This document shows, piece after piece, positions 3,964 to 22,703 of a stretch of 41,704 nucleotides of DNA. Both the position numbers and the translations under genes were made by a program. The number at the start of each line of letters is the position of its first letter. The stretch's first letter is position 1. This stretch comes from Bacillota bacterium (GTDB lineage: Bacteria > Bacillota > UBA5301): assembly GCA_012735535.1 (NCBI GenBank), contig JAAYHC010000045.1, forward strand, positions 1 to 41,704. The letters run 5' to 3'. Below the pieces are notes generated by a model that was given only the letters and a program-made list of their open reading frames with translations, made no database searches and was not told the DNA's origin.

Positions 3964-4335
3964 CTAGCAAACGCCAACACCTAGCAGTTTGTCGAAAGCA
4001 AGCGCTACTCGTTCATACTCAAAAGGCTTGACGATAAAGTCTTTGGCCCCTGAACGAATCGCATCTTTGATAAACTCGGTCTGTCCCATTGCTGAAACCA
4101 TGATAATTTTTGCGTTGGGATCAACACCGCAGATAACTTTAACAGCCTCAAGCCCGCCGAACTCCGGCATGGTGATATCCATCGTAACCACATCCGGCCG
4201 AAGCTTGAAGTAGAGATCAACTGCAGCATAGCCATTCTCGGCCTCTCCTACTACCGTGTGCCCGAGCGCTTCAACGAGGTCGGCGAGGGTTTTCCGCATA
4301 AATGGAGCATCATCGACTATCAGTACCGTAGCCAT
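3964..4335 (-). CDS. CheY-like single-domain response regulator
   Basis: A 123-residue receiver domain alone. It has the acidic pair D8-D9, phospho-acceptor D53 in VVTMD, S81 in place of the usual Ser/Thr, and K103 in the FIVKPF motif. All positions needed for phosphorylation and Mg binding are present. ATG at 4335 is 9 bases behind AAAGGG; GTG and TTG codons just upstream are weaker choices. No kinase, chemotaxis or flagellar gene is in the window, so it is an orphan here. It probably docks on a CheA-type kinase elsewhere. It ends with Cys, which is unusual but unremarkable. Confidence 0.92.
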   Translation of the reverse strand: MATVLIVDDAPFMRKTLADLVEALGHTVVGEAENGYAAVDLYFKLRPDVVTMDITMPEFGGLEAVKVICGVDPNAKIIMVSAMGQTEFIKDAIRSGAKDFIVKPFEYERVALAFDKLLGVGVC

Positions 4336-4417
4336 CACAATCAACCCTTTCTCGCGCTTGGTTGATATTGTTATTTCTGTCTATATTTTACAGCCGACCT
4401 AGCAGGGAATGCAAGTG

Positions 4418-4486: not shown

Positions 4487-6082
4487 CTAGAAGCGGAGAG
4501 TGAAGCCGAAACTGACCACCGGCTTTTCCGATTCGGTATGCTGCACCGCAGTAAATACACCAAAGCTCTCGCTAAGTGACAAGGAAACCGTTAACTCATC
4601 GTAGTGGCGTTGTTGGTCGCGATAGTTGCGAGCCAGACCAACACTGAGCCGCTTACCTTCATAACTAATTCCGCAGTCCAGAAAGGTTGCATCATACCTT
4701 ACGGTCGCCTGACCTATCCGGATCGGCAAGAACTGTGCCGACAGGTATAAGTTCCCGAACAATCTGCTCTTTTCCCTAAATCCGAGGTTTAAACCAGGCT
4801 TGTTCGGATCAGCGGTATACAAGCGGCTGATGACAAATAAGTCGCCGACTGCTCGCCAGCCGAGATCAACAAAGGCGCTCTCCTCATCCGAGACGGCAAA
4901 GCCCACTTGCACTCTGGGCATAACATCGGTTTGCAGGGTCAAACCCCAGCCCTCATCAGCCAAGTTTTTCCTGAAAGCGATAACGGTACCTTCCTGCTCC
5001 TCTGCTTTGCCGCGCTGCGGAATGAAGAAAAGCTGATCAAAGCCATCGAACGAGCCGGCTATCTGCAGCGACCCCTCGGTTATATCCGCTGCAACATCGG
5101 CTTTCAGGCTGAAAACATAATAATCCGCGGCTTGACTTCTCCGAAAACCTAGTAGTGAGCGGTGCACCCGCTCAGAACCAACGCGAATGATCGCCAGCGG
5201 CTTTGACTCTCCGACCCGGAGATCAACGATTGTCTCAACCGCTTCTTTGCGCCCCTCCGCCGGATCGGTCGAAAACGATACCGCAGTTAGAATTGAATCG
5301 GCGCCTACCTGCAGCGGCAGCAGCTCTAATAATACCCGTGACGGAGAAACCGGGAGTTCGGCCATGACCAGCGAAAGGTGGGCCCGTTTGTAAGGGGCGG
5401 TTGAAATCACCGACCGATAATCAGCCCGTTCCGAGAAGGTAGCGGGCATTTGCGTCAACGGAAAATTGATGGTAAATACCTTGGGTTGCTCTTCATTGTC
5501 CGGAGCTATTTCCAAACCGAAGCCTTTGGCTTTTTCGGCGCTGATGCGGGTGAAGGTAAATTGATAAGTTATGGTGTCCTGGTGAACCGTTCTCAGCGCA
5601 GCCGTAACAGCCTGGTCAATCAGTTTCAAATCCTCCGGCAGTGCGGTGACGGTGATGAGGCCCCGTTCGTGATTGGCCTTGATATAGTTTTTGTACTGGC
5701 CCAACTGCTGCACAACCTGGTTAACTTCGGTCGGACGCACCCGATAAACTCTGGTTTCCGCCAAGACCGGGAAGGCCGGGTCTTTGGGGTTGCGCGCCGA
5801 AACTATGGCCAGCGAGTCGTCCACAATCTGAAATGCATAATCCGTTGGCGCAAGTAGCGAGCTCAAGATCTCCGCGAGCGAAGCCCCGGAAAACTGCGCC
5901 GTCACCGACCCGGTTATATTCTCTGGACGGATAATATTAACGCCGGTTATCAGCGACAACTCGTTTAACGCCTCGGCCAGCGGCGTTTCGTAAAACTGCA
6001 CGTCAATACCGATGGCTACGCCGGAAACGGTCAGCAGCAAACAAAGTGCGAGCAGAATCGGCGCGCTGATTCGGCTACTCAT
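4487..6082 (-). CDS. Secretin paralogue fused to a C-terminal beta-barrel-like domain
   Basis: 531 residues with a signal peptide (about 1-25). An STN/N-domain follows (VQFYETPLAEALNELSLITG, about 28-47) and a second N-domain near 105-165. A degenerate secretin-like middle ends in LRVGESKPLAIIRVG. From about residue 345 to the end there are alternating polar/aromatic strands ending FGFTLRF. The first 170 residues align with the neighbouring secretin by eye (FYET-L-EALNEL; R-ITV/VVITA-P). The last part looks like an outer-membrane barrel with a terminal Phe. The ATG overlaps the secretin stop by 8 bases, so the two are translationally coupled. It may be an outer-membrane partner or gate of the secretin. 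I know no named family with this layout. Confidence 0.7.
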   Translation of the reverse strand: MSSRISAPILLALCLLLTVSGVAIGIDVQFYETPLAEALNELSLITGVNIIRPENITGSVTAQFSGASLAEILSSLLAPTDYAFQIVDDSLAIVSARNPKDPAFPVLAETRVYRVRPTEVNQVVQQLGQYKNYIKANHERGLITVTALPEDLKLIDQAVTAALRTVHQDTITYQFTFTRISAEKAKGFGLEIAPDNEEQPKVFTINFPLTQMPATFSERADYRSVISTAPYKRAHLSLVMAELPVSPSRVLLELLPLQVGADSILTAVSFSTDPAEGRKEAVETIVDLRVGESKPLAIIRVGSERVHRSLLGFRRSQAADYYVFSLKADVAADITEGSLQIAGSFDGFDQLFFIPQRGKAEEQEGTVIAFRKNLADEGWGLTLQTDVMPRVQVGFAVSDEESAFVDLGWRAVGDLFVISRLYTADPNKPGLNLGFREKSRLFGNLYLSAQFLPIRIGQATVRYDATFLDCGISYEGKRLSVGLARNYRDQQRHYDELTVSLSLSESFGVFTAVQHTESEKPVVSFGFTLRF

Positions 6083-7283
6083 TGAAGTTCACAACCTCTT
6101 CCGCGCTCACGAAGACCATCAGCTTCCGCTCATCCTGGGAATCCAGGAACGAGCGAAACAGCCAACCGGCGATGGGTATACTGCCGAGAATCGGAATACG
6201 CGAATCGGTGTTCGCCTCGCTTAAGACCGTCAATCCGGAGATCATCGCCACTTCACCGGCTTCGACTTGCACGGTGGTTTGGAGCTCACTGTGGTAGACG
6301 GTCGGCTCTTTATCAGTCTTTGATAGATAGCTGATCTCCGGAACGATGCTCAGCATGATCTTTCCGTTATCCAAGATGGTCGGTGTTGCGGTCAACCGGA
6401 CTCCGGCCTCAATGCTCTTTAACTGTGTTGATGTTGAGTTGTCCGTCGTTTTGTACTCAACAATGCGCGTCTCCCCGGTAAAGAGAACCGCTTCCTTGCC
6501 GTCAGCCACGATTATGGTGGGATCTGCATGAATCTTGCCGGCTTTATCAGCTTGCAAAGCTTTGAATTTGCTAACCAAACTGCCGAACAAATCAGTCTGC
6601 AAACTCAAGGAATTGTCGGTCAGACCTAAAAAGGCCAGCCAGTTCGGGTTGATGCTCTGCCCCCGACGTACATCTAGTTCGAACTTGTCAAGCCCCCATT
6701 TTTTCAGCTCAGAGGTGGATATCTCCGTGACCAAAGCCTTGATCTTGACTTGGCGAACAACCGGCGGCCGATCGATTTCGGCGATAACCGCCATGATTTT
6801 GTCCAAGAGCTCCGGTGGTGCGGTGATCACGACCTGGTTGCCTTCGCGTGAATACTCGATATATTTTTCCGCATACGACGGCAGGATCGGAGCAAGATCC
6901 TTGGCTAGCAGATGGTTGAGCCTAATGACCCGCGATTCGGCCAGATTATGAAAGACTCGGTTTAGCGGGTCGGGTAGGCCAACTAAATAGTAACCCTCTC
7001 CGCGGGTAAAGGTATAGCCACCCGGCAGACACAGTAATCTGAGGGCCTCATCTAAGGGAACATCGTTCAAGTTCAAGGTGACCATACCGCTAACGGTATT
7101 GTCCATTAAGATGTTGACCCCGGATTGGAGGGCGAGTTCGTTGAGCGCCTCGCGGAGGTCGGTTTCATAAAACATCACCGATACCCGTGGCATCTCTTCT
7201 TGGGCCAGCACAGTTGGTAAGAGCCAAGAAAACATCGCTACCAGGCTTAGGAACACACAGACCACAATGCGTTTGCTGTTCAT
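6075..7283 (-). CDS. Secretin (GspD/PilQ superfamily), short form
   Basis: 402 residues with a signal peptide (about 1-27 ending VLA). An STN domain follows (FYETDLREALNELALQSG, near 40), then an N1-like domain (about 115-175) and the secretin core (about 180-398). The core has the classic VEAGEVAMISGL, RIPILGSIPIAGWLFR and KLMVFVSAE elements. Secretins form the ring channel of type II and III secretion and type IV pili in an outer membrane. This one is short, lacks extra N-domains, and has no pilotin-binding S domain visible. It lies 17 bases after the chaperone-like gene. No GspE/PilB ATPase or platform protein is nearby, so the classical systems are not supported by context. Confidence 0.88.
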   Translation of the reverse strand: MNSKRIVVCVFLSLVAMFSWLLPTVLAQEEMPRVSVMFYETDLREALNELALQSGVNILMDNTVSGMVTLNLNDVPLDEALRLLCLPGGYTFTRGEGYYLVGLPDPLNRVFHNLAESRVIRLNHLLAKDLAPILPSYAEKYIEYSREGNQVVITAPPELLDKIMAVIAEIDRPPVVRQVKIKALVTEISTSELKKWGLDKFELDVRRGQSINPNWLAFLGLTDNSLSLQTDLFGSLVSKFKALQADKAGKIHADPTIIVADGKEAVLFTGETRIVEYKTTDNSTSTQLKSIEAGVRLTATPTILDNGKIMLSIVPEISYLSKTDKEPTVYHSELQTTVQVEAGEVAMISGLTVLSEANTDSRIPILGSIPIAGWLFRSFLDSQDERKLMVFVSAEEVVNFNE

Positions 7284-7300
7284 GAGATCACCTCGGCTGA

Positions 7301-8836
7301 TTAATTGCCTTCCAGGGTTATCGGGATCTGGACTTTCTGAAAGCTTTTGCCATTATCAAGCAGCTCAATCTCCGCAGTATATTCTCCGGCATTCAACGCA
7401 CCAATATACTCGCCGACCAAAAAACTTTCGTCGCCGGGATAAAGTCGTTCGAGCTCCGCGTTTTTCAGGTCAGTGGTCAGAACTAAGCCATTATTAGCAT
7501 CGAGCAAGCTTAACTTCGCGCTAGGTAATATGTGTATGCGGCCATCGTTCAGGATATGCAGAGTAAAGGTGACTTTATTCTCATCCTGGTTGACCTCGAT
7601 CGACTCAGCCGAGAGACTTGGCGTTGTGCCCTTACTGACAATACAGATTACCGGGGTCAGCAGCTCTTCCACAACTTGCGTTAGTTCGGGGTCTCGATAG
7701 GCGGTCAGCCGTAGGTTCGCATAGTATCCACCTGGTTCGGCATCGGCCGGAACCTGCAGGGTCAGGATGAAGCGGCCCGGTTGCATCGGCGCCAGCCTGA
7801 TACTGTCGCCAATCCCGTAAACCTGCAGCCACTCGTGGGCCGAGTAGGCATAGCCAGGCTTGAACTCCGCCGGCGTCACCTTGACGTAGATCTGTTCTTG
7901 GGACGCGTTGAAGATTTCGATTGCCCCGGTCTGCCGCTTTTTGGGATCCAAAGAGGCTTCGATCCGTGCCGGTTTAACATTAATTATCGTCCCCACCGCA
8001 TCATCATGCGGGGGCTCGAAATCGCCCGGTTCGATGGTGACCGTTTCATTTAAGATGCTCTGTCCCCGCTCACCATACTTGAGGATGGCGCTGAAATAAT
8101 AGGTGCCCGGCGGCAAGTACCGCTCCGGATAGTTGGTGAACAAGACCTTTGCCCCCGGATAGATCCTGGTAACGTTGGTGTTATTAGTGTGGCCGGGCTG
8201 AGTCCGCAAATTCAGTCGTTCAATGAGGCTACGGTTTTCGCCGCGGATAGTCACCTCGACTTCGGCCTCAAAATCCACATGCGACGGGTTATTGACCTCG
8301 GCCGTGATCAGTTGACGGCCCTGCTCATCTTTCTCGAGTCGGAGAAAACTGAGTTCGCCGCGGACCGGCAATGAGGGGCCGATAACTCGCACAATCACGC
8401 GCACCGCATAGCGCACCTGAATAGCGACATGGCTCGTCCCCATCTCCGGCTCCGGCTCGACCATAATGGTGATGATATGGGAACCGCTGGCGCCGAAGGG
8501 CACGGTGATCGTGATCGGTACTTCCACACTTTGATTTGCCGGCACGGTCACCATTTCGGCCGGTAAGGAGACCCAAGTCACTTCCGGAAAGATGGCCGGA
8601 TCGGCTTCCAGAAAGACAAGATTGCCATGATAGGCTTGGGCCGGCTGATAAACTTGCAGCCGTACGTTCTCCTGCCGGCCTGACGGGCTAAGATATAAAT
8701 TGAAACGACCTGTCTCCCCCGGACGCAAATTTAAATCTACGGTGAGAGGTTGTACACCTATTGCAGAACAAAGCGCAGATGAGAAAGTAATAATTAGCAA
8801 TAATAACAGCGCACTTAGAATAATTTCCCGTTTCAA
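7301..8836 (-). CDS. Exported tandem Ig-fold chaperone-like protein (DUF916/PapD-like)
   Basis: 511 residues with a Sec signal peptide (about 1-25). The rest is all beta and internally duplicated in the order A-B-A-B. A modules (about 27-140 and 285-385) show the PapD/DUF916 pattern: L-PG-T near the start, W at mid-domain, VPA or APMQP, then a VP segment. B modules (about 150-275 and 395-508) share YPG...L-PGTY/L-AGEY and an end in EPG/LEG. This recalls the DUF916-DUF3324 pair of WxL-interacting proteins, here doubled, and also fimbrial chaperones. The start is TTG behind GGGGGG. No C-terminal membrane anchor is seen, so it is probably periplasmic. Function is inferred from the fold and neighbours. 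Confidence 0.65.
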   Translation of the reverse strand: MKREIILSALLLLLIITFSSALCSAIGVQPLTVDLNLRPGETGRFNLYLSPSGRQENVRLQVYQPAQAYHGNLVFLEADPAIFPEVTWVSLPAEMVTVPANQSVEVPITITVPFGASGSHIITIMVEPEPEMGTSHVAIQVRYAVRVIVRVIGPSLPVRGELSFLRLEKDEQGRQLITAEVNNPSHVDFEAEVEVTIRGENRSLIERLNLRTQPGHTNNTNVTRIYPGAKVLFTNYPERYLPPGTYYFSAILKYGERGQSILNETVTIEPGDFEPPHDDAVGTIINVKPARIEASLDPKKRQTGAIEIFNASQEQIYVKVTPAEFKPGYAYSAHEWLQVYGIGDSIRLAPMQPGRFILTLQVPADAEPGGYYANLRLTAYRDPELTQVVEELLTPVICIVSKGTTPSLSAESIEVNQDENKVTFTLHILNDGRIHILPSAKLSLLDANNGLVLTTDLKNAELERLYPGDESFLVGEYIGALNAGEYTAEIELLDNGKSFQKVQIPITLEGN

Positions 8837-8854
8837 TTACGACCCCCCAAGCTT

Positions 8855-8898
8855 AAAAAATAGAGAGTTGGCGGCGTGGTCCGTTCCGCCGCCAACTC
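8855..8898 (-). terminator. Strong hairpin terminator/attenuator inside the cluster
   Basis: A perfect 12 bp GC-rich stem (8865-8876 with 8887-8898) with a 10-base loop is followed on the minus strand by a T-rich tract (8860-8855). It lies between the second subunit gene and the chaperone-like gene, 8 bases past the subunit stop. It probably limits read-through so that subunits are made in excess over the assembly proteins. Confidence 0.85.
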
Positions 8899-8906
8899 GA
8901 GTAACA

Positions 8907-9623
8907 TTAGACCGCTGCTGAAACGGTCAAGGTAATTAAACCATTGTACTCGCCGGCAGCTTGACCGGAGATGGTGTCACGCGTTCCGGCAAAGCCGAAG
9001 ACCTGGAATGGATAAATGCCTTTGCCTTCGAGTTGTACTGATACTGTTTCAGGATGATCGTTTGTCGGCCAGATCTTATCCCAGGCCGCAAGGGCGCCCA
9101 AGGCTGCAGTTAATGCATCCTCCCATTCGGGAACCTCGAAATTGTCCCATCCGGTCCAGACAGGAGTATCACCGCTACCAAAGAAGCCAATGGGTCGGCA
9201 GGGCACGAGTTGCTCCGGCAACACCCCGAGAATCGGCCAAGTATCATCGTCATATCCTTTGGAGAAAAATGCCCAGTAGGTCGTCGGCAGGGTATAGTCG
9301 CCGTTGGTCAGAGGAGTTCCGTCAAAAGTCACGGTGACAGGGGCGTTGGTTTCAACAACGAAACAGTTGGTATCTTTGACCTTGTTTTCACCCGGAGCAC
9401 CCACAAACCAACCAAAATCCATCAATGGAGGAACATCTTTCCACCAGGTCCAGAAGAGAAAGCCTTTTTTAAACTCGAGCTTCTGTGCGACAACCTTGGC
9501 GTACGGACCGACAGTGGCAGTGACATCGATTTCTTTACTATCCCCGTTCGGGCCGGCCAGCGCAACCGAGGCCGCACCAAGAGTTAATATGCCGATCAAG
9601 ACCAGCGTGAAGATCTTTTTCAC
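8907..9623 (-). CDS. Secreted beta-rich subunit, larger paralogue
   Basis: 238 residues from GTG at 9623, placed 7 bases behind AGGAG; an upstream GTG at 9638 is too early. The signal peptide covers about 1-23. The mature start KEIDVTATVGPYAKVV and the end YNGLITLTVSAAV match the smaller neighbour (EIPVKAVVGKYAKVV; YLAKVTITVSAL). The middle is longer and Trp/Pro-rich, with about eight Trp. No cell-wall anchor or membrane segment is present. The alternating hydrophobic strands at each end suit a fimbrial-type or spore-coat-U-type sandwich subunit. I do not recognise an exact family. It is likely a tip, minor or adhesive subunit next to the smaller major one. Confidence 0.65.
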   Translation of the reverse strand: MKKIFTLVLIGILTLGAASVALAGPNGDSKEIDVTATVGPYAKVVAQKLEFKKGFLFWTWWKDVPPLMDFGWFVGAPGENKVKDTNCFVVETNAPVTVTFDGTPLTNGDYTLPTTYWAFFSKGYDDDTWPILGVLPEQLVPCRPIGFFGSGDTPVWTGWDNFEVPEWEDALTAALGALAAWDKIWPTNDHPETVSVQLEGKGIYPFQVFGFAGTRDTISGQAAGEYNGLITLTVSAAV

Positions 9624-9654
9624 AGTATCACTCCTCACAAATTAGAATTAAGCA

Positions 9655-10134
9655 TTAGAGAGCAGAAACAGTGATGGTCACTTTGGCCAAGTAATTACCG
9701 GCGGACTGGGCGGAAATGGCACCGAGTTTTGCCGTTCCAGAGAGGATGTACTTGCCATAAGCAGCTCCGGTCCTGGTGAACGAAGTGGACTGACCACCTT
9801 TGAACTTGTAGCCGCCAAAATCGTAATCAACCGCGATCGTATCATTGCCGCCGTTTAACGTTAATACGGTAGCACTCAGTTGCACGTCAATGGAGCAGTT
9901 CGATTCGATCTCAACATCAGTCTGGGCCTGATCAGTCTCGTTAGCCCGGCCTTCAAAGTTGAAACTCAGACCGCCGCACCCAAGCTCGACTACTTTCGCA
10001 TACTTACCGACAACGGCTTTAACCGGAATTTCAGCACTTACACCATTTTCCGGGTTACCTGCAGCGGCTAACGCAAACGCACCGAGGCCCAAAACCAAGG
10101 ACAACGCCAACACAACAACCATGATTTTTTTCAT
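9655..10134 (-). CDS. Secreted beta-rich subunit, pilin-like, probable major subunit
   Basis: 159 residues with a clear signal peptide (MKKIMVVVL...ALA, about 1-23). The mature part is beta-rich, with two Cys (CGG near 53 and NCS near 79) that could form a disulfide, and ends AGNYLAKVTITVSAL. It resembles fimbrial or spore-coat-U sandwich proteins in length and pattern. The ribosome site AAGGAGGT is the strongest in the cluster, fitting high expression. It lies 31 bases upstream of the larger paralogue, and a terminator follows the pair. No type IV prepilin cleavage motif is present, so export is by Sec. Function as a surface fibre subunit is an inference. Confidence 0.65.
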   Translation of the reverse strand: MKKIMVVVLALSLVLGLGAFALAAAGNPENGVSAEIPVKAVVGKYAKVVELGCGGLSFNFEGRANETDQAQTDVEIESNCSIDVQLSATVLTLNGGNDTIAVDYDFGGYKFKGGQSTSFTRTGAAYGKYILSGTAKLGAISAQSAGNYLAKVTITVSAL

Positions 10135-10238
10135 TAATGCATACCTCCTTAGATTTGTTGAATTGATCCGACTAAGGGAGTAAAGCCTAGTTTTTTGCTT
10201 CCACCTCCCTAACAGTGCTAGAGGTAAAGGCAGGCTCG

Positions 10239-11102
10239 TTAGTCCACAATGCTAAAGGAGACCGAGCCGCCGTCATAAACGCCGGCAAAATCATCCCATG
10301 TGCTCTGGAGAAGCATATAAACCGTGAACAAGGCCGAACCAGACTGCACGCCGCCGAGAATTACTCCGTCCTTGGTGAGCGGCACAAAGTCGCCATCGGG
10401 GTCAAGCGAGACCAGCAACTGCTCGAGCGGAATACGCCGGACCTCGTCAGACCGAGCGTCGGCAACCAAAGCCAGCGGCGTAGCATGCACTTTGAGCCGC
10501 CAGCCGGAATAGTTTGTCCTCACTTGGACGGTAATCGGTTCTTTGGCCGGATAGTAGCCTGGACCGGACATCGCCGCAAACTCGATCGGCGAACCGGTGA
10601 CCTGCAACTGATACAGTTTTGGCTGACAAAGCGTCAGGGTAATTGTCGGCCAATCACGCGAGGACGGAACCAACTCGATCCGGTACTCTCCGGCCGGTAA
10701 GTTCAGATCGCGCGGCAATTTTAGCCGGTACTCGGCGGTGGGATTGTCCGCGGCCAACTGAACCGGAAAATGCTTATTCAGTTGAAAAGCTTGTCGGTTG
10801 GTGCTGACTAAAAGAGATGCATCATGACCGGTCAAGTCGGTGATTCTGCTGAGCGATCCGACGTGGTAATTAACGCTGATCGACCGACCGGAAACCGCAG
10901 CAAAGACGATAACCGCCTCTTCCCGGTTCTGGTCGTAGCCGAGATCAATGCGCAGATCGGCGTTGCTAAAAGACCAGTCCCAGCGGGCATCTGAACCAAT
11001 AGCAGTGCCGGCCGGTACGGAAAATGATAAGACCGCCAACGGCACAACCAGCGCGAGTGCAATAATTCGGATGAATTGAACACTTGCTCTCCCCTGTAAC
11101 AT
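10239..11102 (-). CDS. Exported hypothetical beta-rich protein, first gene of the cluster
   Basis: 287 residues, ATG behind AGGGAAG. The signal peptide is about 1-36 with a long n-region (IRIIALALVVPLAVLSF core, ending GTA). The rest is predominantly beta. The segment LPAGEYRIELVPSS (about 148-161) resembles the PG-Y or AGEY strands of the chaperone-like protein. The C-terminus GGSVSFSIVD ends in a strand. No family recognised and no membrane anchor visible. It lies 104 bases upstream of the pilin-like gene on the same strand. It may be a second subunit, adhesin or assembly factor of the same system. Confidence 0.6.
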   Translation of the reverse strand: MLQGRASVQFIRIIALALVVPLAVLSFSVPAGTAIGSDARWDWSFSNADLRIDLGYDQNREEAVIVFAAVSGRSISVNYHVGSLSRITDLTGHDASLLVSTNRQAFQLNKHFPVQLAADNPTAEYRLKLPRDLNLPAGEYRIELVPSSRDWPTITLTLCQPKLYQLQVTGSPIEFAAMSGPGYYPAKEPITVQVRTNYSGWRLKVHATPLALVADARSDEVRRIPLEQLLVSLDPDGDFVPLTKDGVILGGVQSGSALFTVYMLLQSTWDDFAGVYDGGSVSFSIVD

Positions 11103-14648: not shown

Positions 14649-15953
14649 TTATACGCGAAACTTTGCGCTCCGTTTATTTACCTCTGCAAACAATTTTTCC
14701 TGATCAATCGTGGTCAGCTCCCCGCCATCGACCAGCACTTTGCCGGCAACCATCACCAACTCCACGTCACTGCCCTTGGCGGCATACACTAAGTTGGAGA
14801 CGTAGTCATGGACGGGCTGTAGGTGCGCTTTGCCGAAATCAACCACCTGCAAATCGGCTTGGTAACCGGGCTCGATGCAGCCGACCGGGGCAAGCAGTCC
14901 AAAGCCCTCCGGCACCGGATTGATCGCCCGTTGTAATAAGTAGCCGGCGGGAACGCTCTCCGGATTACCGGTCGAAACCTTCTGCAAATAGCCGGCCAAA
15001 CGCAGCTCCTCATACATGTCGAGCTTGTTGTTGCTGGCCGCCCCATCGGTGCCGATGCCGACTCGCACCCCGGCCTGACGCAAGGCATCAAGTCTGGCCA
15101 CCCCCGAGGCGAGCTTCATATTGCTCGCCGGACAGTGCGCCACCACCGCACCCGCCTCCGCCAGCAGTTCGATATCCTGATCGGACAAATGCACTCCGTG
15201 CGCAGCCAGAAGCGGCTGCTCGAGGAGTCCGGTCTCGGCCAGGATCTGGGTCGGCGTCTTCCCGTAACGGGCAAGCACGGTCTGATTTTCGGTCTGTGCC
15301 TCCGAAAGATGAATGTGGATACCAACCCCTAGCTCACCGGCTAACTCGGCCGTGTGTCTGAGCAGATCCGGAGTACAGGTATAGGTGCCATGCGGCGCAA
15401 GTAAGAAGCTGAGCCGTCCCTCCCCGGCACCATGGTACCGGTTATATAGGCTCACCGCTTCAGCCAAGCGCTCCTTGGCACTTTCCAGATCACCGAGAAA
15501 GCCACGGGCCAAATTGGCTCTGATCCCGCTCTCCAGGACCGCCTGCGCGATCTGGTCAACCCCCATGTACATATCGAAAAAGCAGGTCGTGCCGGAGAGC
15601 AGCATCTCGGCGATCGCCAGCAAGCTGCCCCAGTAATAGTCGTCGGCGCTTAGGCGCTCTTCGGCCGGGAAGATCTTTTCCGTCAGCCATCGCTCTAAAG
15701 GCAGATCCTCACCCAGCCCGCGCAGCAAGGTCATCGGGGCATGGGAGTGCAGATTGACGAAGCCCGGCAGCAAAACCTTGCCACGCCCGTCAATGACCCG
15801 CTCGGCATCGATCTCGGCCGGCAGGTCGCCGGAGGCAACCGCGCTGATCTCGGATCCTTCGACCACAACATAGCCACGCTCAATAACCTGCCAGCCACTA
15901 TCCGAGCCGATCTCCGGCGAGAGGATCGTGATATCGCGAAAAACCGTCCGCAT
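14649..15953 (-). CDS. mtaD: 5-methylthioadenosine/S-adenosylhomocysteine deaminase
   Basis: 434 residues of the amidohydrolase (TRZ/ATZ) family. Metal ligands are visible as HSH in VNLHSHAPM (about 63-71), HIHLSEAQ, and GTDGAASNNKLDMYEE (Asp of the active site). It deaminates MTA and SAH to the inosyl forms. Chosen ATG at 15953 lies 6 bases behind GGAGGT; an adjacent ATG at 15956 is almost on the ribosome site. It follows ahcY directly, with start and stop separated by two bases. Its context among mtnP, mtnA and ahcY supports S-adenosylmethionine by-product recycling. Confidence 0.93.
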   Translation of the reverse strand: MRTVFRDITILSPEIGSDSGWQVIERGYVVVEGSEISAVASGDLPAEIDAERVIDGRGKVLLPGFVNLHSHAPMTLLRGLGEDLPLERWLTEKIFPAEERLSADDYYWGSLLAIAEMLLSGTTCFFDMYMGVDQIAQAVLESGIRANLARGFLGDLESAKERLAEAVSLYNRYHGAGEGRLSFLLAPHGTYTCTPDLLRHTAELAGELGVGIHIHLSEAQTENQTVLARYGKTPTQILAETGLLEQPLLAAHGVHLSDQDIELLAEAGAVVAHCPASNMKLASGVARLDALRQAGVRVGIGTDGAASNNKLDMYEELRLAGYLQKVSTGNPESVPAGYLLQRAINPVPEGFGLLAPVGCIEPGYQADLQVVDFGKAHLQPVHDYVSNLVYAAKGSDVELVMVAGKVLVDGGELTTIDQEKLFAEVNKRSAKFRV

Positions 15954-15955
15954 CA

Positions 15956-17200
15956 TTACACCTCCCAACTGGCCAGGTATTTTTGCTGCTCCGGTGTGAG
16001 ATCATCAATGCTGACCCCCAGGGAAGCCAGTTTATGACGGGCGACCAGGGCATCAATCTCCGCCGGGATGCTGTAGACCTTAGGCGCCAGTTCTCTGTGG
16101 TGTTCCATGACGTACTTGACGGCCAAGGCTTGGATGGCAAAACTCAGGTCCATGATCTCGATCGGGTGCCCGTCGCCACAGGCTAAATTGACGAGGCGCC
16201 CCTCGCCGAGCACATTGATCTTGCGCCCGTCGGCCAAGGTATATTGGTCGATACCAGGTCGAACTTCGCGAACCGACTCGGCCAACTCAGCCAGCTCCCT
16301 CAGATTGATCTCGACGTTGAAATGACCGGCATTGGCGAGCACCACCCCATCTTTCATCACCTGAAAATGCTCTTTGGTGATGATATCTTTACAGCCGGTC
16401 GTGGTGACAAAGATATCTCCGACCGCAGCCGCTTCGCGCATCGGCAGCACCGTGTAGCCGTCACAATACGCCTCCAGCGCTTTGACCGGGTCAACCTCGG
16501 TGATAATCACCTTGGCCCCTAAGCCGCTCGCCCGCATGGCCACGCCTCGCCCACACCAGCCGTATCCGCTAACCACCACATTTTTGCCGGCGATGAGCAG
16601 ATTGGTCGTGCGCATGATGCCATCCCAGACCGACTGACCCGTACCGTAGCGATTATCAAAAAGATGTTTACAATACGCATCGTTGACCGCCATCATCGGG
16701 AAGCGTAAAACGCCGTCCCGCTCCATCGCCCGCAGCCGAATAATACCGGTGGTAGTCTCCTCACACCCGCCGAGCACCCCGGCGGCCAAGTCGCTGCGTT
16801 CGGTGTGGAGCAGGTTGACCAAATCCCCGCCATCATCAATGACCAGATCCGGGCCAAAATCTAGGGTTCGGTTGAGGTGTTCAAAATACTCGTCCTCGGT
16901 CGCCCCATGCCAAGCATAGACGGCCAATCCTTCTTCCGCCAAGGCGGCGGCGACGGCATCTTGGGTCGAAAGCGGATTGCTGCCGGTGACGGCGACCTGC
17001 GCGCCCAAAGCGGCCAGGGTCTTGGCCAGACAGGCCGTCTTCGCCTCCAAATGCACCGAAATGGCGATCTTTTTCCCGGCAAATGGCCGGGCATCCGCAA
17101 ACTCAGCAGCCAAGGCCCGCAGGATCGGCATGTTTTGCCAAGCCCATTCAATTTTCTGTTTGCCCAGCCCGGCTAGGCTGGGGTCTCTAATAATCGACAT
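15956..17200 (-). CDS. ahcY: S-adenosylhomocysteine (or S-inosylhomocysteine) hydrolase
   Basis: 414 residues, the short prokaryotic/archaeal form of AdoHcy hydrolase. It reversibly splits SAH to homocysteine and the nucleoside using bound NAD. The sequence shows SVHLEAKTACLAKTL, the DDGGDL substrate loop, NDAYCKHLFDNRYGTGQS, and the Rossmann stretch VVSGYGWCGRGVAMR (GXGXXG type). A conserved HFNVEI segment follows. ATG at 17200 is behind AAGGA. Because mtaD follows immediately, the true substrate could be S-inosylhomocysteine, as shown for the Methanocaldococcus enzyme. This is an inference; sequence by eye cannot separate the two. Confidence 0.94.
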   Translation of the reverse strand: MSIIRDPSLAGLGKQKIEWAWQNMPILRALAAEFADARPFAGKKIAISVHLEAKTACLAKTLAALGAQVAVTGSNPLSTQDAVAAALAEEGLAVYAWHGATEDEYFEHLNRTLDFGPDLVIDDGGDLVNLLHTERSDLAAGVLGGCEETTTGIIRLRAMERDGVLRFPMMAVNDAYCKHLFDNRYGTGQSVWDGIMRTTNLLIAGKNVVVSGYGWCGRGVAMRASGLGAKVIITEVDPVKALEAYCDGYTVLPMREAAAVGDIFVTTTGCKDIITKEHFQVMKDGVVLANAGHFNVEINLRELAELAESVREVRPGIDQYTLADGRKINVLGEGRLVNLACGDGHPIEIMDLSFAIQALAVKYVMEHHRELAPKVYSIPAEIDALVARHKLASLGVSIDDLTPEQQKYLASWEV

Positions 17201-17221
17201 CAACCGCCATCCTTCCCCAGA

Positions 17222-18271
17222 TTATTTCCGCAATGCGGCAGCAATACTATCCGTATAAGGTGGCCGCAAGACCCCGACCTCGGTGATGATTCCGGTGATG
17301 TAGCGATGCGGGGTGACATCGAAGGCCGGGTTGAGCACGGCTACATCCGCCGGTGCGATCTGGTGCCCAAAGAGGTGGGTCACCTCGCTGTGATGCCGCT
17401 CCTCAATGGGGATCTCGGCCCCGCTTTTCAGCGAGGCGTCGATCGTCGAACGCGGTGCGGCGATGTAAAAGGGGATGCCATGTTCTTTGGCCAAGATCGC
17501 GAGCCCATAGGTCCCGATCTTGTTCGCGGTATCGCCGTTGGCCGCGATCCGGTCCGCGCCGACCACTACCAATTGGACGCGTCCCTGCTGCATCACGTAA
17601 GCGGCCATATTATCGGTAATCAGGGTCACCGGGATCTGGTCCTGCTGCAGTTCCCAGGCGGTGAGCCTGGCACCCTGCAAAAAGGGACGGGTCTCATCAG
17701 CGTAAACCATGATTTCTTTGCCTTGCTCATGGGCAACCCGGATCACCGCTAAGGCGGTGCCATAATCCACCGTCGCCAAGGCCCCCGCGTTGCAATGGGT
17801 CAGAATCCCGGCACCCCGTGGGACCAGCTCCGCCCCATACTCGCCAATCTTACGGTTGGTCGCCACGTCTTCATCGGCGATGGCTTGGGCCTCTTGCTCC
17901 AAGCGTTGTTGCAGCTCCGACGGGCTCAGATCACGATTGGCTTCATAGACACGGCGCATCCGGTCGAGGGCCCAGAAGAGGTTGACGGCCGTTGGTCGGG
18001 TGGCAGCCAACACCTCAATAACCTTGTCCACATAAGCGTCAAGCTCCGCCGCCGGGCGCCCGGCCGCTACAAACTCGGCCAGACCGATCGCAACCCCATA
18101 GGCCGCGGCCGCCCCGATCGCCGGAGCCCCGCGCACGACCATCTCTTTGATCGCCGCCGCCACCTCGGTATAGCTACGACAAACGACAATCTCAGAGCTG
18201 ATCGGCAGTTTGCGCTGGTCGATGAGGCGCAATTCACCCGGCTGAAACTCCATCGTCATCACTCGTGCCAC
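17222..18271 (-). CDS. mtnA: S-methyl-5-thioribose-1-phosphate isomerase
   Basis: 349 residues of the eIF2B-like sugar-phosphate isomerase family. It converts methylthioribose-1-phosphate to methylthioribulose-1-phosphate in MTA salvage. Signatures are [13 protein letters not shown] (about 49-61), [17 protein letters not shown] with the catalytic Cys, and [20 protein letters not shown] with the catalytic Asp. The chosen GTG at 18271 is 7 bases behind GGAGGT; the ATG at 18277 overlaps that site. It acts right after MtnP, encoded upstream. Later steps of the pathway (mtnB/C/D or the aldolase shunt) are not in the window. Confidence 0.95.
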
Positions 18272-18288
18272 AAACATAACCTCCTAGA

Positions 18289-19074
18289 TTAAAACTGACC
18301 TAATTCTCGCGTCGCATGATGGCAGGCGCAGTCAGGATCTTCGCTCAGCCCACTGATCGCCCGCATCAATAACCGGCGGAGCTTTTCGGTATTCCGATCC
18401 ATGATCTCGACCACCTCGCGATGGGTCAGCGGATGGGGAGAGATCCCGGCCGCCCAATTGGTCACCATCGCCACCGTAGCGTAACACAGGCCGGCTTCGC
18501 GGGCCAGAACAACCTCCGGCACATTGGTCATCCCGACCAAATCCCCGCCCAAAACAGCATAGGCCTTGATCTCCGCCGGCGTCTCGTAGCGCGGTCCTTC
18601 GGTGCAGACATAAGTCCCCCGGGGAATCAGAGTAATCCCCGCCTCCTTGGCCGCAGCCAAGAGCACCGCGCGCACCCGTGGACAATACGGCTCGGTATAA
18701 TCCACATGGACAACCCCGGCCGGTCCGCCATCGTAAAAAGTATCCACTCGGTCTTTGGTAAAATCGATGAACTGGTCGAGCAAAACCATCTCGCCCGGGG
18801 GCATCTCTTGGTTGAGCGAGCCGACCGCTGCCGTGGCGATGACCTCGGTCACCCCGAGCATCTTCAAGCCCCAAATGTTGGCCCGGTAGTTAATCCGATG
18901 TGGCGGAACCGAGTGTCCGGAGCCATGGCGGGCTAAGAAAAACACTTCCTTATCCTCATACCGCCCCTGGAGATAGTTGATCGTACCATATGGGGTTACC
19001 AGTTCCGCTTCTTGTACATCCGTGAGGATCGCCGGGTCGTACACCCCTGTACCCCCGATAATGGCTATCCGCAA
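18289..19074 (-). CDS. mtnP: S-methyl-5'-thioadenosine phosphorylase
   Basis: 261 residues of the trimeric purine-nucleoside phosphorylase family. It cleaves MTA with phosphate to adenine and methylthioribose-1-phosphate, the MtnA substrate. Key stretches are IGGTGVYDP at the N-terminus (phosphate site), ARHGSGHSVPPHRINYRANIW, and GLKMLGVTEVIATAAVGSL. YVCTEGPRYETPAE and VGMTNVPEVVLAREAGLCYA follow near the base site. The start is TTG, 8 bases behind GGAGG. The enzyme could also act on inosine derivatives, which would fit the mtaD neighbour. Confidence 0.95.
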   Translation of the reverse strand: MRIAIIGGTGVYDPAILTDVQEAELVTPYGTINYLQGRYEDKEVFFLARHGSGHSVPPHRINYRANIWGLKMLGVTEVIATAAVGSLNQEMPPGEMVLLDQFIDFTKDRVDTFYDGGPAGVVHVDYTEPYCPRVRAVLLAAAKEAGITLIPRGTYVCTEGPRYETPAEIKAYAVLGGDLVGMTNVPEVVLAREAGLCYATVAMVTNWAAGISPHPLTHREVVEIMDRNTEKLRRLLMRAISGLSEDPDCACHHATRELGQF

Positions 19075-19086
19075 CCTGACCGCCTC

Positions 19087-20052
19087 CTAAATCATCAGTT
19101 TGCCGTCTTGCATGATCACCTGGCCATCGATCTCAATGGTAGCCTTCAGCATAATTCCATCAAGATGACTGGGCACAGAGGTATTGCCGCCGAAGGTCTT
19201 ATTATCGCCGATGGCGATGTGCGCAGTGCCCAAAACCTTCTCATCTTCGAGCGGGCTGCCGCACAGCTCGGCCTGGTCGTTGGTGCCGATGCCCAGTTCG
19301 GCGATGTTGCGCGCCGGTTGGCCGAAAGGCTTGATGATTTCGACGATCCGCCGTGCCCCTTCACCGCCGGTGATGTCGGTGACAAAACCGTCTTTCACAA
19401 TAAAGGTGATCGGATCATTGGTTAAGATCCCCGCGCCGGACATCGAGCCGTCGACGACGAACTTACCGTTGGCCGTGCCTTCAACCGGGGCGATAAAGGC
19501 CTCGCCCGCCGGGAAATTGCTAAATAGCCCCGGTTTGTTGACCAAGCCCGTATCCGGATGCCCGGTCCGTCCGGCGATGCTCAGCGTAATATCGGTGCCG
19601 GCCGGCGTGGTTACCCGTGCGGTCTTGCCCTTGGTCAGTATCTCGGCTAGCTTATTGCTCACCTCGGCAATCCGCTCATAATTGCCCTGGAGGGCACGGA
19701 CCAGCGTCTCCGGCAGGATGCCGGGCAAAGTGTAAATCCGCGCCCCGGCCTGATTAGCCTCCTTGCGGGCAGCGGTATGGGAGAGCGATTTGCTGGTTGG
19801 CGCGAGCACCACGGCTGCTTTTTTCATCGCCTCGGCGACCATCGCCGGCGGCTCGGCCCCGTGACTGGCCCGCGGCATGATTTCGACGATCGCCGCCTCG
19901 GCCCCTAAGTCCTTAGCGGCCTGCCACAGCAGTTCACCAACCGGGCGCAGCGGCTCGTCCGTGACTACGAGCACCTCCTCACCCTGCTTTACTCCCAAAC
20001 ACGTGGCCAGAATCCGGGCAGCATCCGCCCGGAGATCGGTTAAATCCTTCAT
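19087..20052 (-). CDS. M29-type aminopeptidase (thermophilic metalloprotease family)
   Basis: 321 residues similar to the AmpS/PepT M29 family and related proteins often labelled leucyl aminopeptidase. The C-terminal half carries the family pattern: ELGIGTN near 258, LGTAHIAIGDN near 279, and SVPSHLDGIMLK near 295, with acidic and His residues for a two-metal site. No signal peptide. ATG at 20052 lies 8 bases behind AAGGAG; a more upstream ATG at 20058 is too close. It sits 12 bases before mtnP and 22 bases after the GlcF-like gene. Its link to SAM salvage is not obvious. A ring-cleavage enzyme of the same superfamily is an alternative. Confidence 0.78.
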   Translation of the reverse strand: MKDLTDLRADAARILATCLGVKQGEEVLVVTDEPLRPVGELLWQAAKDLGAEAAIVEIMPRASHGAEPPAMVAEAMKKAAVVLAPTSKSLSHTAARKEANQAGARIYTLPGILPETLVRALQGNYERIAEVSNKLAEILTKGKTARVTTPAGTDITLSIAGRTGHPDTGLVNKPGLFSNFPAGEAFIAPVEGTANGKFVVDGSMSGAGILTNDPITFIVKDGFVTDITGGEGARRIVEIIKPFGQPARNIAELGIGTNDQAELCGSPLEDEKVLGTAHIAIGDNKTFGGNTSVPSHLDGIMLKATIEIDGQVIMQDGKLMI

Positions 20053-20074
20053 CACCATTTCTCCTTATCACAAA

Positions 20075-21247
20075 TTAATTTACAACTAATTCAGCTGCCA
20101 ACTCTGCGATATCGAGCACTCTGATGGCGGATTTGACATCCTGTAAACCAAAGGTCAACACTTGCCGGCATTCGCCGCAAGCCGTCACCACTGTCTCGAC
20201 ACCGCTGGCCTTGATCTGCTCGAGGCGAGCATGCCGAATACCCAAGGCCAACTCCTGGTCGATCATATGCAAACTGGCCCCGCCCCCGCAGCACAGACTG
20301 TCGGCACGATTGTTGGCGAGTTCTACAAATTCCAGTTCGGGAATGCTCTGTAAAATCCTCCGCGGCGGATCGTAGATCCCGAGGTGTCTCCCGAGATCAC
20401 AGGGATCATGATAGGTCGTCCGATGCGGATAGGGAGCAAACTGCAACCGCCCCTCGCGGACCAAATCAGCCAAGTATTCAGTGTAATGGACCAAGGTAAT
20501 CCCCAACTCACCTTGGTTATAGACCGGATAATCCTCATGCCAACTGGACAAGCAGGACGGGCAGAGAAAAACCAGCTTCTCGAGGCCTAACTCGCGGATC
20601 TTGGCGAGATTTTTCCGCGCCACCTCCCGCGAAACCGCGACTTCGCCGGCGGTGATCAAGGGGTGGCCGCAACAATACTCGTCAGCGCCGAGAAAATATG
20701 CTTTAATGCCGAGTTTCAGCATAATCTGGGCAAAGGCCAGCGGGATCGTCACCAGCAACGGGTAAAATGAGGCGACACAACCGACGAAAACTGCGATCTC
20801 GGGATCTTGCGGTCGGAGCACCTCCGGATATCCCGGTAAAGACAACGCCCAATAGCTGCGAACTTCATTGGGATTGGCGAAGATATTACCGTGCTCCTTG
20901 ATCCGCTGCTTCGTCGCCATGATCTGCTTGGGGACCGCCCCTCTTTTGGCCAACTGATGCTTGACCCCCTGCCACAGGTTCATCAGGTCCATATGGGCCG
21001 GGCAGACATCAACACAGCGGCGGCAATGGGTGCACTGCCAGAAACGCTCCGCAAACTCGGGCGGAATATTCGCAAACGGCGGATAGGAACTCAAGAGGTT
21101 CTGGAGTTGATAGACCTTATTGCGCGGAGTGGCGCTTTCACGACCGATCTTTTGGTAGACCGGACAAACCCGACGGCAGTACCCGCACTGGATACACGTA
21201 AAAGCCTCCGCATGTAATTTGGAAAACGAATAATCCTTGTTTTTCAC
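20075..21247 (-). CDS. GlcF/HdrD-like iron-sulfur CCG-domain protein
   Basis: 390 residues. Two ferredoxin-type [4Fe-4S] motifs lie near the N-terminus (CIQCGYCRRVCP and CTHCRRCVDVCP). Two CCG domains follow, containing DEYCCGHPL and DSLCCGGGAS. This is the iron-sulfur partner of GlcD-type FAD oxidases and is also related to heterodisulfide reductase HdrD/B. GTG start overlaps the flavoprotein stop by four bases, so a tight pair is encoded. It probably takes electrons from the flavin or a thiol/disulfide and passes them to a membrane or soluble carrier. The nearby lipoyl carrier suggests dihydrolipoyl as a possible substrate; lactate or glycolate is the conventional guess. Confidence 0.85.
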   Translation of the reverse strand: MKNKDYSFSKLHAEAFTCIQCGYCRRVCPVYQKIGRESATPRNKVYQLQNLLSSYPPFANIPPEFAERFWQCTHCRRCVDVCPAHMDLMNLWQGVKHQLAKRGAVPKQIMATKQRIKEHGNIFANPNEVRSYWALSLPGYPEVLRPQDPEIAVFVGCVASFYPLLVTIPLAFAQIMLKLGIKAYFLGADEYCCGHPLITAGEVAVSREVARKNLAKIRELGLEKLVFLCPSCLSSWHEDYPVYNQGELGITLVHYTEYLADLVREGRLQFAPYPHRTTYHDPCDLGRHLGIYDPPRRILQSIPELEFVELANNRADSLCCGGGASLHMIDQELALGIRHARLEQIKASGVETVVTACGECRQVLTFGLQDVKSAIRVLDIAELAAELVVN

Positions 21248-22701
21248 GACCGTGCCCTGCCTATACGGGTGATGAGTTTACGAAAACCCCTCGTTAGCAG
21301 CATTGCGGGAGAAAAAACGCTCGGCCTGAGCAGCTTGGTGGCTCGGTATGTTTTCCCCGGATTAAGGATCAGCTGTGGATCCAGCTTTTGCTTGCGTTCC
21401 CACATCGCCCGGCGCTCCCGTGCCGAATAGATATGGCGCAAATATGGCGTATTCCAGAGCCCAATCCCGACCGGCTTTCCCTCCGCTTTCAGCGCGATGT
21501 TGTACAGCGCGCTCACCAGGCTTAAATCCAGCAAATAACTGATCGTCCGCGCCTCATCCGACCAAAACATCGTTGTCACATAAACTTCTTTGCGATTAAT
21601 CAAATACCCGTAGGTGATCATCGGTTTCCGTTGGGCCGTCGCCAGCTGCTCGATCCCCCGCGTGTAATGGCTAATCATCGCCAGGGGCACAACCACCTCC
21701 GCGCCGAGAAGCGACGGGCCGGTGCGCTGGAGTCGGAAATTGTAGTAACGATCCTGCCAGAATTTTTCGGCCTGCCAGTTGGGGAGTTGCCTGACCCGAT
21801 ACTCCGATTTGAAGGCGCGCATCCGCTGAATTCCCAACTCGACATGGTCGAGCGAGCCAAAGAAACTGGCGACAAAGAAATTACTCGGCAGCATCGCGTC
21901 CCAATTGATCCGTTGTAGCTGCTGCCCGCCGGAGGTGGTCGAAACAAAGGTCACATTGTACGGGAGAAACGGCCCCCATAAATAGTTGGTCAAGAAATCC
22001 TGCAGCTCGGCTATGTCATGAAAGCCAAAGGCAATGTGGCCTTGGGCTTCCGGGCGGCGCAACAGCTCGATCTCCAACTGGGTCACAATACCTAAAGTGC
22101 CCTCGGAACCCAAAAACCACTCGATCGGCAACTCTGAATTGTCACGAGTTAGCCACTCAATCCTGCCGCCGGGCAAGACGACCTCCAAGCCACGGACCTG
22201 TTCGAGCAGGTTGCCGTGAAGCAACGCGCCGTACCCGCGTCCGCCGTTATTGAACCAACCGCCAATCGTCCCGCCCGGTGCGCTCGACGGAAAAGTCGCC
22301 AAGGTCCAGCCCCGCATTTCGGCTTGTTGGATGAGATCATAAATGATCGTCCCTGCTCCAACCCTGACTGTGCCCGCCGTCAGATCCCATGGGCCAATCG
22401 TATTTAACCAGCTGAGATCGCAGACAACCCCGCCCTTGGCCGGAACACTCTGAAATAACGAAGTAGAGCCGGCACCACGCGGGGTTACCGGGATCCGCTC
22501 TTCCTCAGCCCAGGCCAAAAGCAACGCAACATCCTCACGGCTGTGCGGCAGAACGACCAGATCCGGCACAGTCTTTAACCAATCACCGGTCAGAAAACCT
22601 TCGACCGGCGACATATCGTGCGAATAAGCCAGGCGCTCATAGAGTGAGTCCGTGGCTAATTCACGCAGCTGAGCTGGGAGTTTGGTAAGTAGCTCCGACA
22701 C
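21244..22701 (-). CDS. GlcD-like FAD-binding oxidoreductase
   Basis: 485 residues of the FAD-linked oxidase family (PCMH FAD domain then FAD-oxidase C-terminal domain). The FAD stretch has VVLPHSREDVALLLAWA, PVTPRGAGSTSLF and APGGTIGGWFNNGGRGYG. The C-terminus has PQLILNPGKTYR. These enzymes oxidise 2-hydroxyacids, D-lactate, glycolate or alkyl-glycerol compounds. GTG start behind GGAGGAT, two bases past the lipoyl-carrier gene. With the iron-sulfur gene downstream it forms a GlcDF-type pair. The substrate is not readable from sequence. Confidence 0.85.
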   Translation of the reverse strand: MSELLTKLPAQLRELATDSLYERLAYSHDMSPVEGFLTGDWLKTVPDLVVLPHSREDVALLLAWAEEERIPVTPRGAGSTSLFQSVPAKGGVVCDLSWLNTIGPWDLTAGTVRVGAGTIIYDLIQQAEMRGWTLATFPSSAPGGTIGGWFNNGGRGYGALLHGNLLEQVRGLEVVLPGGRIEWLTRDNSELPIEWFLGSEGTLGIVTQLEIELLRRPEAQGHIAFGFHDIAELQDFLTNYLWGPFLPYNVTFVSTTSGGQQLQRINWDAMLPSNFFVASFFGSLDHVELGIQRMRAFKSEYRVRQLPNWQAEKFWQDRYYNFRLQRTGPSLLGAEVVVPLAMISHYTRGIEQLATAQRKPMITYGYLINRKEVYVTTMFWSDEARTISYLLDLSLVSALYNIALKAEGKPVGIGLWNTPYLRHIYSARERRAMWERKQKLDPQLILNPGKTYRATKLLRPSVFSPAMLLTRGFRKLITRIGRARS

Positions 22702-22703
22702 TC

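Follow-up and report, generated by a model that had tools for sequence, protein, structure and literature searches.

Secretins are familiar as outer pores in machines driven by ATPases, and pilins of the chaperone-usher fold as the cargo of ushers, in a pathway that needs no periplasmic ATP. Published work describes fibres whose subunits are linked by donor strands with no usher involved, namely archaeal threads and type V pili (PMC9715654), TasA (PMC9674648) and TapA (PMC10151520), and a 2016 survey of diderm secretion systems leaves chaperone-usher systems aside and says that novel systems may remain (PMC4793230). Here we describe a cassette found in the 41,704-nucleotide contig JAAYHC010000045.1 (the window) of a Bacillota bacterium of the UBA5301 lineage (GCA_012735535.1), one contig of a genome of 1.94 Mb that is 98% complete. 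Six consecutive genes (g1 to g6) on the - strand, running from 11102 to 4487, combine secreted subunits, an immunoglobulin (Ig)-fold protein and a short secretin. We consider it probable that they encode a 'chaperone-secretin' pathway: pilin-like subunits exported by Sec would be chaperoned and would exit through the secretin as donor-strand-linked fibres with no secretion ATPase. A little more cautiously, we favour the view that this is a new, cross-phylum class of fibre biogenesis, in which chaperone-usher-type pilins would polymerise by donor-strand exchange and a secretin, in place of an usher, would extrude them, with no inner-membrane ATPase, and of which the minimal form comprises three genes. 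No earlier description of the cassette was found in the open-access literature, subscription papers and preprints lying outside the search.

The gaps between successive genes from g1 to g6 are 104, 31, 70, 17 and -8 bp, short enough for the six to be read as one operon. The initial annotation of the window had listed six co-directional genes here, with two paralogous secreted subunits, a duplicated Ig-fold protein, a short secretin, plain Sec signals on the subunits, and neither an usher nor an ATPase at the locus, and each of these features is borne out below; indeed, no usher or ATPase gene adjoins g1 to g6 in the window.

The cassette is widely conserved. A search of 60 relatives with the Ig protein (g4) recovered syntenic loci, and a g4 profile run against 399 genomes of the phylum gave a match in 74, full-length in about half of these. 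Neighbourhoods of the loci of g4 relatives were fetched and their proteins clustered, recurrence of families being judged around 46 loci. A secretin of about 400 amino acids (aa) lies on the same strand, at most 4.6 kb away, in 37 of the 40 loci with a long Ig protein; with about one secretin per Mb, the chance expectation is about 0.6% per locus. Two of the three loci with no secretin nearby (L055 and L085) are near a contig end and offer little room, and the third (L074) has 4-8 kb. The linkage of Ig protein and secretin is thus far above chance, by synteny in dozens of genomes, and the subunits are inherited together with them: the g1, g2 and g3 families recur across cassettes of the window's type (pairwise comparison and clustering). 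The commonest gene order is subunit(s), Ig protein, secretin, outer-membrane-type protein, and an alternative arrangement is subunit, secretin, g6, (regulator), g1, subunit, Ig protein.

A wider scan of named genomes, with the N-terminal region of the cassette secretin as query, found 54 secretin loci in Limnochordia, Halanaerobiales, many metagenome-assembled genomes of Bacillota, Atribacterota, Omnitrophota, Desulfobacterales and Gammaproteobacteria, most of them with an adjoining Ig protein if the contig was long enough. The chaperone is present in 4 of the 19 genomes of the Gammaproteobacterial group; at the four Gammaproteobacterial loci L144, L178, L179 and L180 it is always adjacent to the secretin, and a subunit gene is visible in three of the four, L180 beginning at the chaperone (contig end). 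L179 is a bare three-gene set of subunit (142 aa), chaperone (283 aa) and secretin (386 aa). Judged by the homology of its genes, the cassette extends beyond Firmicutes. Thus the surmise of the initial annotation that related clusters exist in other genomes proved correct, and of its description of a 'diderm Firmicute' system the diderm part stands and confinement to Firmicutes does not. No g4 relative was found in viral contigs, and no relative of the Gammaproteobacterial chaperone on plasmids.

Cassette-bearing cells have an outer membrane: Omp85 is encoded by all 38 Bacillota cassette genomes, compared with 102 of 399 genomes in the phylum sample (hypergeometric P 7e-26; 7e-17 by genus; relatedness ignored). 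The usher (PF00577) is absent from all 38 and from five cassette genomes of other groups, with a positive E. coli control. Neither the T2SSE ATPase (PF00437, GspE/PilB/CpaF type) nor the T2SSF platform (PF00482) occurs anywhere in four of the whole genomes (G157, G216, G310 and G373); G310 and G373 are single contigs, 99% and 96% complete, and G157, G216 and G373 encode no secretin besides that of the cassette. In these four genomes, the cassette does not depend on the ATPase or platform of type II secretion systems (T2SS) or type IV pili (T4P). A profile built from the two CpaF proteins of the host genome detected a CpaF-type ATPase in no cassette locus. The initial annotation had been wary that homologous clusters might always include such an ATPase or an usher, which turned out not to be so.

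Besides g5, the secretin of the window, the host genome encodes three secretins: a T4P operon contains one, and two Tad loci account for the others. Each of the three has its machine alongside; g5 has none. It could be proposed that g5 provides an extra outer-membrane channel to T4P, Tad or T2SS machines, the Ig protein and subunits being accessory or adhesin proteins of those pili. The host does possess T4P and two Tad systems, albeit with secretins of their own, T2SSE is found in 34 of the 38 Bacillota cassette genomes, and one cassette (L014) adjoins type IV pilin genes; against this stand the four genomes (two of them a single contig) that lack both T2SSE and T2SSF, the three in which no other secretin exists, the Sec rather than prepilin signals of the subunits, and a secretin clade distinct from the PilQ-like and CpaC-like ones. 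We judge this explanation very improbable and reject it on the strength of the cassette genomes that lack ATPase and platform.

By its domain content, g5 (6075..7283, - strand, 402 aa) is a true short secretin of minimal N0-N1-secretin form, with Pfam matches to STN (1.6e-9), Secretin_N (5.7e-8) and Secretin (8.7e-34). Its best relatives of solved structure in a PDB profile search are GspD and PilQ, and pIV (7ofh) is also matched. When 28 cassette secretins were placed in one tree with 18 others from the same genomes, all 28 fell on one side of a branch with a Shimodaira-Hasegawa-like approximate likelihood ratio (SH-aLRT) support of 97, apart from the PilQ-like and CpaC-like secretins. Those of Gammaproteobacteria, Omnitrophota, Atribacterota and Desulfobacterales nest within the cassette clade; the secretin of L144 is on a long branch and its exact position is uncertain. 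The best full-length family match of g5 is to PHROG 1012, the M13 pIV family (4.8e-45), which shares its domain layout and would suit a remnant of a filamentous (inovirus-like) prophage, with g5 as the phage secretin and the other genes as hitch-hikers. We find this scarcely credible and reject it on the conserved synteny: the whole cassette has long been kept together across phyla, only its own families recur beyond scattered occurrence around the 46 loci, g1 to g4 match no PHROG, and the neighbours are housekeeping genes. Families of pI/Zot and of phage coat proteins did not recur in the neighbourhood clustering around those loci, although no search was aimed at Zot.

The Ig protein g4 (7301..8836, - strand, 511 aa) has four confident Ig domains in its AlphaFold2 model (predicted local distance difference test score, pLDDT, 89.6). 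Its two halves are homologous (hhalign 99.6%, E 1.9e-24), which makes g4, at the level of sequence, a tandem duplicate of a two-Ig unit. Pfam gives weak matches to NPCBM_assoc, WxLIP_PGBD (1.6e-4, below the cut-off) and FixG_C. The sole convincing sequence relative of known structure is WxLIP (9i1y, profile E 1.5e-6), and the top ranks in Foldseek go to long Ig-repeat proteins, followed by WxLIP (245 residues, template modelling (TM) score of the target 0.57-0.62), with the CfaA chaperone (9.7e-9, TM of the target 0.57) below WxLIP and other Ig proteins. The Ig chaperone label given by the initial annotation is kept as to fold and chaperone likeness, with the amendment that g4 is kin to WxLIP rather than recognised as PapD. 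The final strand of the first Ig domain (residues 136-154, ..IQVRYAVRVIVRV.., 8375..8431, - strand) is a candidate for the strand donated to subunits. Its Arg142, in the motif VRYAV, is nearly invariant, Arg142 and Ala144 being at least 90% conserved in A8, and the counterpart VRYAI is retained in Gammaproteobacteria (L144). The position of Arg142 is presumably like that of a lysine in PapD, a likeness that offers a lead and not a test. The strand aligns with NRIAYNL of WxLIP, which is predicted to insert a strand into WxL and so complete the WxL sandwich (PMC10599100); the WxLIP and chaperone readings of g4 therefore point to the same act.

The same paper reports that WxLIP binds WxL and proposes that it binds peptidoglycan (PMC10599100). 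Taken with the WxLIP kinship of g4, this raises the idea that g4 is a cell-wall or surface anchor, tethering subunits to peptidoglycan or to the outer membrane before or after their export through the secretin, in the way that WxL proteins are tethered by WxLIP. We think this role doubtful: g4 ends in a beta strand and has neither a C-terminal transmembrane helix nor a WxL domain, its pairing with a secretin is near-obligate and confined to diderms, and partners of pilin fold suit a donor-strand chaperone. No WxL domain was matched in g1 to g3 by Pfam. Anchor and chaperone roles of g4 are mutually compatible and need not exclude each other.

Half-length, two-Ig relatives of g4 (266-307 aa) occur beside small exported subunits at L067:1233-5525, L068:3258-8211 and L070:4402-8712, where they adjoin an exported protein of 719-1113 aa with SdrD_B/carboxypeptidase-regulatory domains that is not a secretin and is not recognised as an usher. 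In these loci the same family of chaperones may have found another solution at the outer membrane.

The subunits g2 (9655..10134, - strand, 159 aa) and g3 (8907..9623, - strand, about 238 aa) are paralogues, forming one family on pairwise comparison. The open reading frame (ORF) of g3 was listed from 9638; a better start is the GTG at 9623, preceded by GAGGAG, which yields MKKIFTLVLIG.... The subunit sequences carry Sec-type signals with AxA-like ends, and the G-x4-E prepilin motif is absent from them. A match of g2 to DUF4402 (4.3e-5) is slightly below the gathering score, g1 and g3 match nothing in Pfam or NCBIfam, and a profile of the subunits found nothing significant among PDB sequences, for which reason the subunit was taken to structure prediction. 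The AlphaFold2 model of g2 (pLDDT 87.0, alignment of 18 rows) gave 11 Foldseek matches at E<=0.001 against the whole PDB, and all 11 are chaperone-usher pilins (TM 0.42-0.51), the top matches being CfaB, CS17, CsuA/B, the PapG pilin domain and FimF/G, the latter as a subunit of the FimD-tip complex. The archaeal thread subunit 7pnb, from a donor-strand fibre with no usher, is also in the list at low rank. Thus the subunit fold is, by prediction, of pilin type, and the worry of the initial annotation that the subunits might prove unrelated to fibre proteins was not realised.

In the same model residues 25-45 of g2 are strand-like, with an alternating sequence, and unpaired, the first modelled strand being 46-51; residues 32-45 (VSAEIPVKAVVGKY, 10000..10041, - strand) are a candidate N-terminal donor strand. 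A motif that covers the unpaired segment occurs in 70% of the subunits of the family and in 4-6% of controls, and the C-terminal motif of the subunits is also much commoner than in controls; the enrichment is illustrative only, because the regular expression was written after the sequences had been seen. A C-terminal strand, AGxYxGxIxxTVS, recurs in the g1, g2 and g3 families; g3 starts VTATVGPYAKV and ends QAAGEYNGLITLTVSAAV, and the C-terminus of g1, ...AGVYDGGSVSFSIVD, fits the subunit pattern AGxYxGxIxFT. The first gene, g1 (10239..11102, - strand, 287 aa), encodes an exported beta protein that is a candidate two-domain tip or initiating subunit. In another lineage, proteins of 400-700 aa share their C-terminal domain with the adjoining short subunit (same cluster) and in this resemble a tip adhesin.

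These subunits might instead be secreted with no fibre being formed. The Ig protein would then chaperone a few soluble or surface-attached beta proteins, of a coat or matrix layer, and these would be exported singly through the secretin, in the manner of a T2SS without its ATPase. The great diversity of the subunits (22% mean column identity), some of them with two domains, would fit, as would the fact that secretins are best known for the passage of folded proteins and that no fibre has been seen. We regard secretion one by one as unlikely, since the fold predicted for the subunit points specifically to chaperone-usher pilins and its N-terminal segment is both conserved and unpaired, and since cassettes usually contain at least two related subunits and a longer adhesin-like one sharing their C-terminal domain, which together are the make-up of a fibre.

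The last gene, g6 (4487..6082, - strand, 531 aa), keeps an STN/N0 start (STN 7.6e-7) and matches the hidden Markov model (HMM) of the cassette secretin (6.5e-29); no Secretin domain was matched in Pfam, and a g6 profile found nothing significant among PDB sequences. Towards the C-terminus g6 is beta-rich, and its last residues, ...SFGFTLRF, are of outer-membrane type. Counterparts in other lineages are c3 and c26. A Phe, Trp or Tyr C-terminus is found in 23 of 48 g6 proteins and 14 of 15 of c3 type, against a background of 45 in 545, and the C-termini of g6, c3 and c26 resemble those of outer-membrane barrels, which suggests that a barrel may be present. The initial annotation had called g6 a secretin paralogue with a barrel end and had considered a barrel/secretin hybrid; the N0 domain, the HMM match and the type of C-terminus agree with this, the missing Secretin domain does not, and a more fitting description of the pair is a full secretin (g5) and a separate, probably accessory outer-membrane protein (g6).

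In the chaperone-secretin pathway as we envisage it, g2, g3 and g1 cross the inner membrane on the ordinary Sec signals seen in their sequences. Each subunit, probably an incomplete Ig fold, would be held in the periplasm by g4, which would lend it a strand, probably around Arg142, much as PapD does for pilins and as is predicted for WxLIP and WxL; fold, conservation and linkage are all consistent with this. The chaperoned subunits would reach the periplasmic N0-N1 vestibule of g5, which would replace the usher. There the N-terminal segment of the next subunit would displace the strand of the chaperone (donor-strand exchange), and the energy of this exchange could, without ATP, drive the fibre out through the secretin as it grows. 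The g1 protein or a long adhesin-type subunit might form the fibre tip, and g6, or c3 elsewhere, may be an outer-membrane accessory that anchors or gates the secretin. Since chaperone-usher assembly requires no ATP in the periplasm, a missing ATPase is what this model expects.

Several points weigh against the model. An inner-membrane assembly platform is the normal partner of a secretin, and we know of no case in which subunits polymerise at one. The TM scores of the g2 matches are moderate and its alignment is shallow at 18 rows, and g4 has no PapD_N or PapD_C match in Pfam at E up to 1. The T2SSE ATPase, present in all but four of the Bacillota cassette genomes, is also present in eight of eight from other groups; independence from it is therefore established only within Bacillota, and cooperation in trans is excluded only where T2SSE is absent.

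The surroundings of the cassette in the window are those of ordinary housekeeping genes and not of a mobile island: a row for methylthioadenosine/adenosylhomocysteine salvage (deaminase-like, ahcY, mtnA, MTAP), followed by glycolate-oxidase-like genes, occupies 14649-22704. A CheY-like response regulator (3964..4344, - strand; Response_reg 1.4e-26) begins 142 bp after g6 and is not counted as part of the cassette. An Rfam scan of the window found only tRNAs, and scans for promoters and terminators gave no excess over shuffled sequence.

Elsewhere, regulator genes accompany a number of cassettes (L013:3808-5010, L016:11388-12542 and similar genes at further loci). A BTAD/SARP-like regulator (c6) lies within or adjoins the cassette in seven loci, a sigma-54-type activator (c7) stands beside it in seven others, and L144 and L178, both Gammaproteobacterial, have an NtrC-like regulator and a histidine kinase on their flanks; sigma-54 or a two-component system may control the putative fibre. 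Tandem double cassettes (subunit, Ig protein and secretin, twice) at L083:4470-12911 and L084:5865-14359, with a shorter second secretin, look like duplication followed by divergence. At L141:4867-7934 (Atribacterota), a cassette-type secretin is followed by a second secretin-like protein of 611 aa and preceded by an exported protein the size of one Ig domain, no full Ig chaperone having been found on that short contig. In the GC-rich genome G373, an antisense ORF of 1173 aa spans the Ig protein and secretin genes (L181:3787-7308), so that a gene caller preferring the longest ORF would overlook the cassette.

If the proposed pathway is correct, a secretin can work with chaperone-held subunits alone, one more route is added to those by which fibres are known to cross the outer membrane, and diderm Firmicutes, which are central to the debate on outer-membrane loss, acquire their own surface machine. 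With just three genes, the Gammaproteobacterial version puts the question within direct reach of experiment. Through its link to WxLIP, g4 also hints at a possible common ancestor of chaperone-type systems and the WxL system of Gram-positive bacteria.

Like the clusters of WxL and WxLIP (DUF916-DUF3324), the cassette joins an Ig protein, here a significant relative of WxLIP in sequence and fold, with small and large secreted beta proteins. It differs in that WxLIP has a C-terminal transmembrane helix and belongs to monoderm surfaces, whereas g4 has four Ig domains, no membrane helix, and the company of a secretin and an outer membrane. With M13 pIV, g5 shares its minimal layout of about 400 aa and its best PHROG match, but it belongs to a conserved chromosomal cassette of surface proteins in which a pI/Zot-type partner and coat genes were not noticed, Zot not having been specifically sought. 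Threads (Saci_0406), TasA/TapA and type V pili provide precedent for pilin-like subunits joined by donor strands with no usher, an arrangement that the cassette would share. The cells that make threads and TasA lack an outer membrane, the precursors of type V pili are lipidated (PMC9715654), and none of these fibres is described with a secretin.

As in T2SS, T4P and Tad systems, the cassette secretin has N0, N1 and secretin domains and is distant kin of PilQ and GspD; unlike theirs, its locus has no GspE/PilB ATPase or GspF/PilC platform, both of which are missing from four entire genomes, its subunits have no prepilin-type (class III) signals, and its secretin forms a separate clade. The cassette is therefore not a T2SS, T4P or Tad system. 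The closest resemblance is to chaperone-usher systems of the alternate (CFA/I) and archaic (Csu/CupE) kinds, in the predicted subunit fold, the N-terminal donor-strand-like segment, the C-terminal strand AGxYxGxxxxTV, the several subunits with a longer adhesin-like one, the Ig-fold, putatively periplasmic chaperone-like protein and the dispensability of an ATPase. It departs from them in having a secretin and no usher (0/43 genomes), and a chaperone that is duplicated to four Ig domains in Bacillota and is not recognised as PapD by sequence; with these two hallmarks lacking, the cassette is not a member of the chaperone-usher class, though it would work in a similar way.

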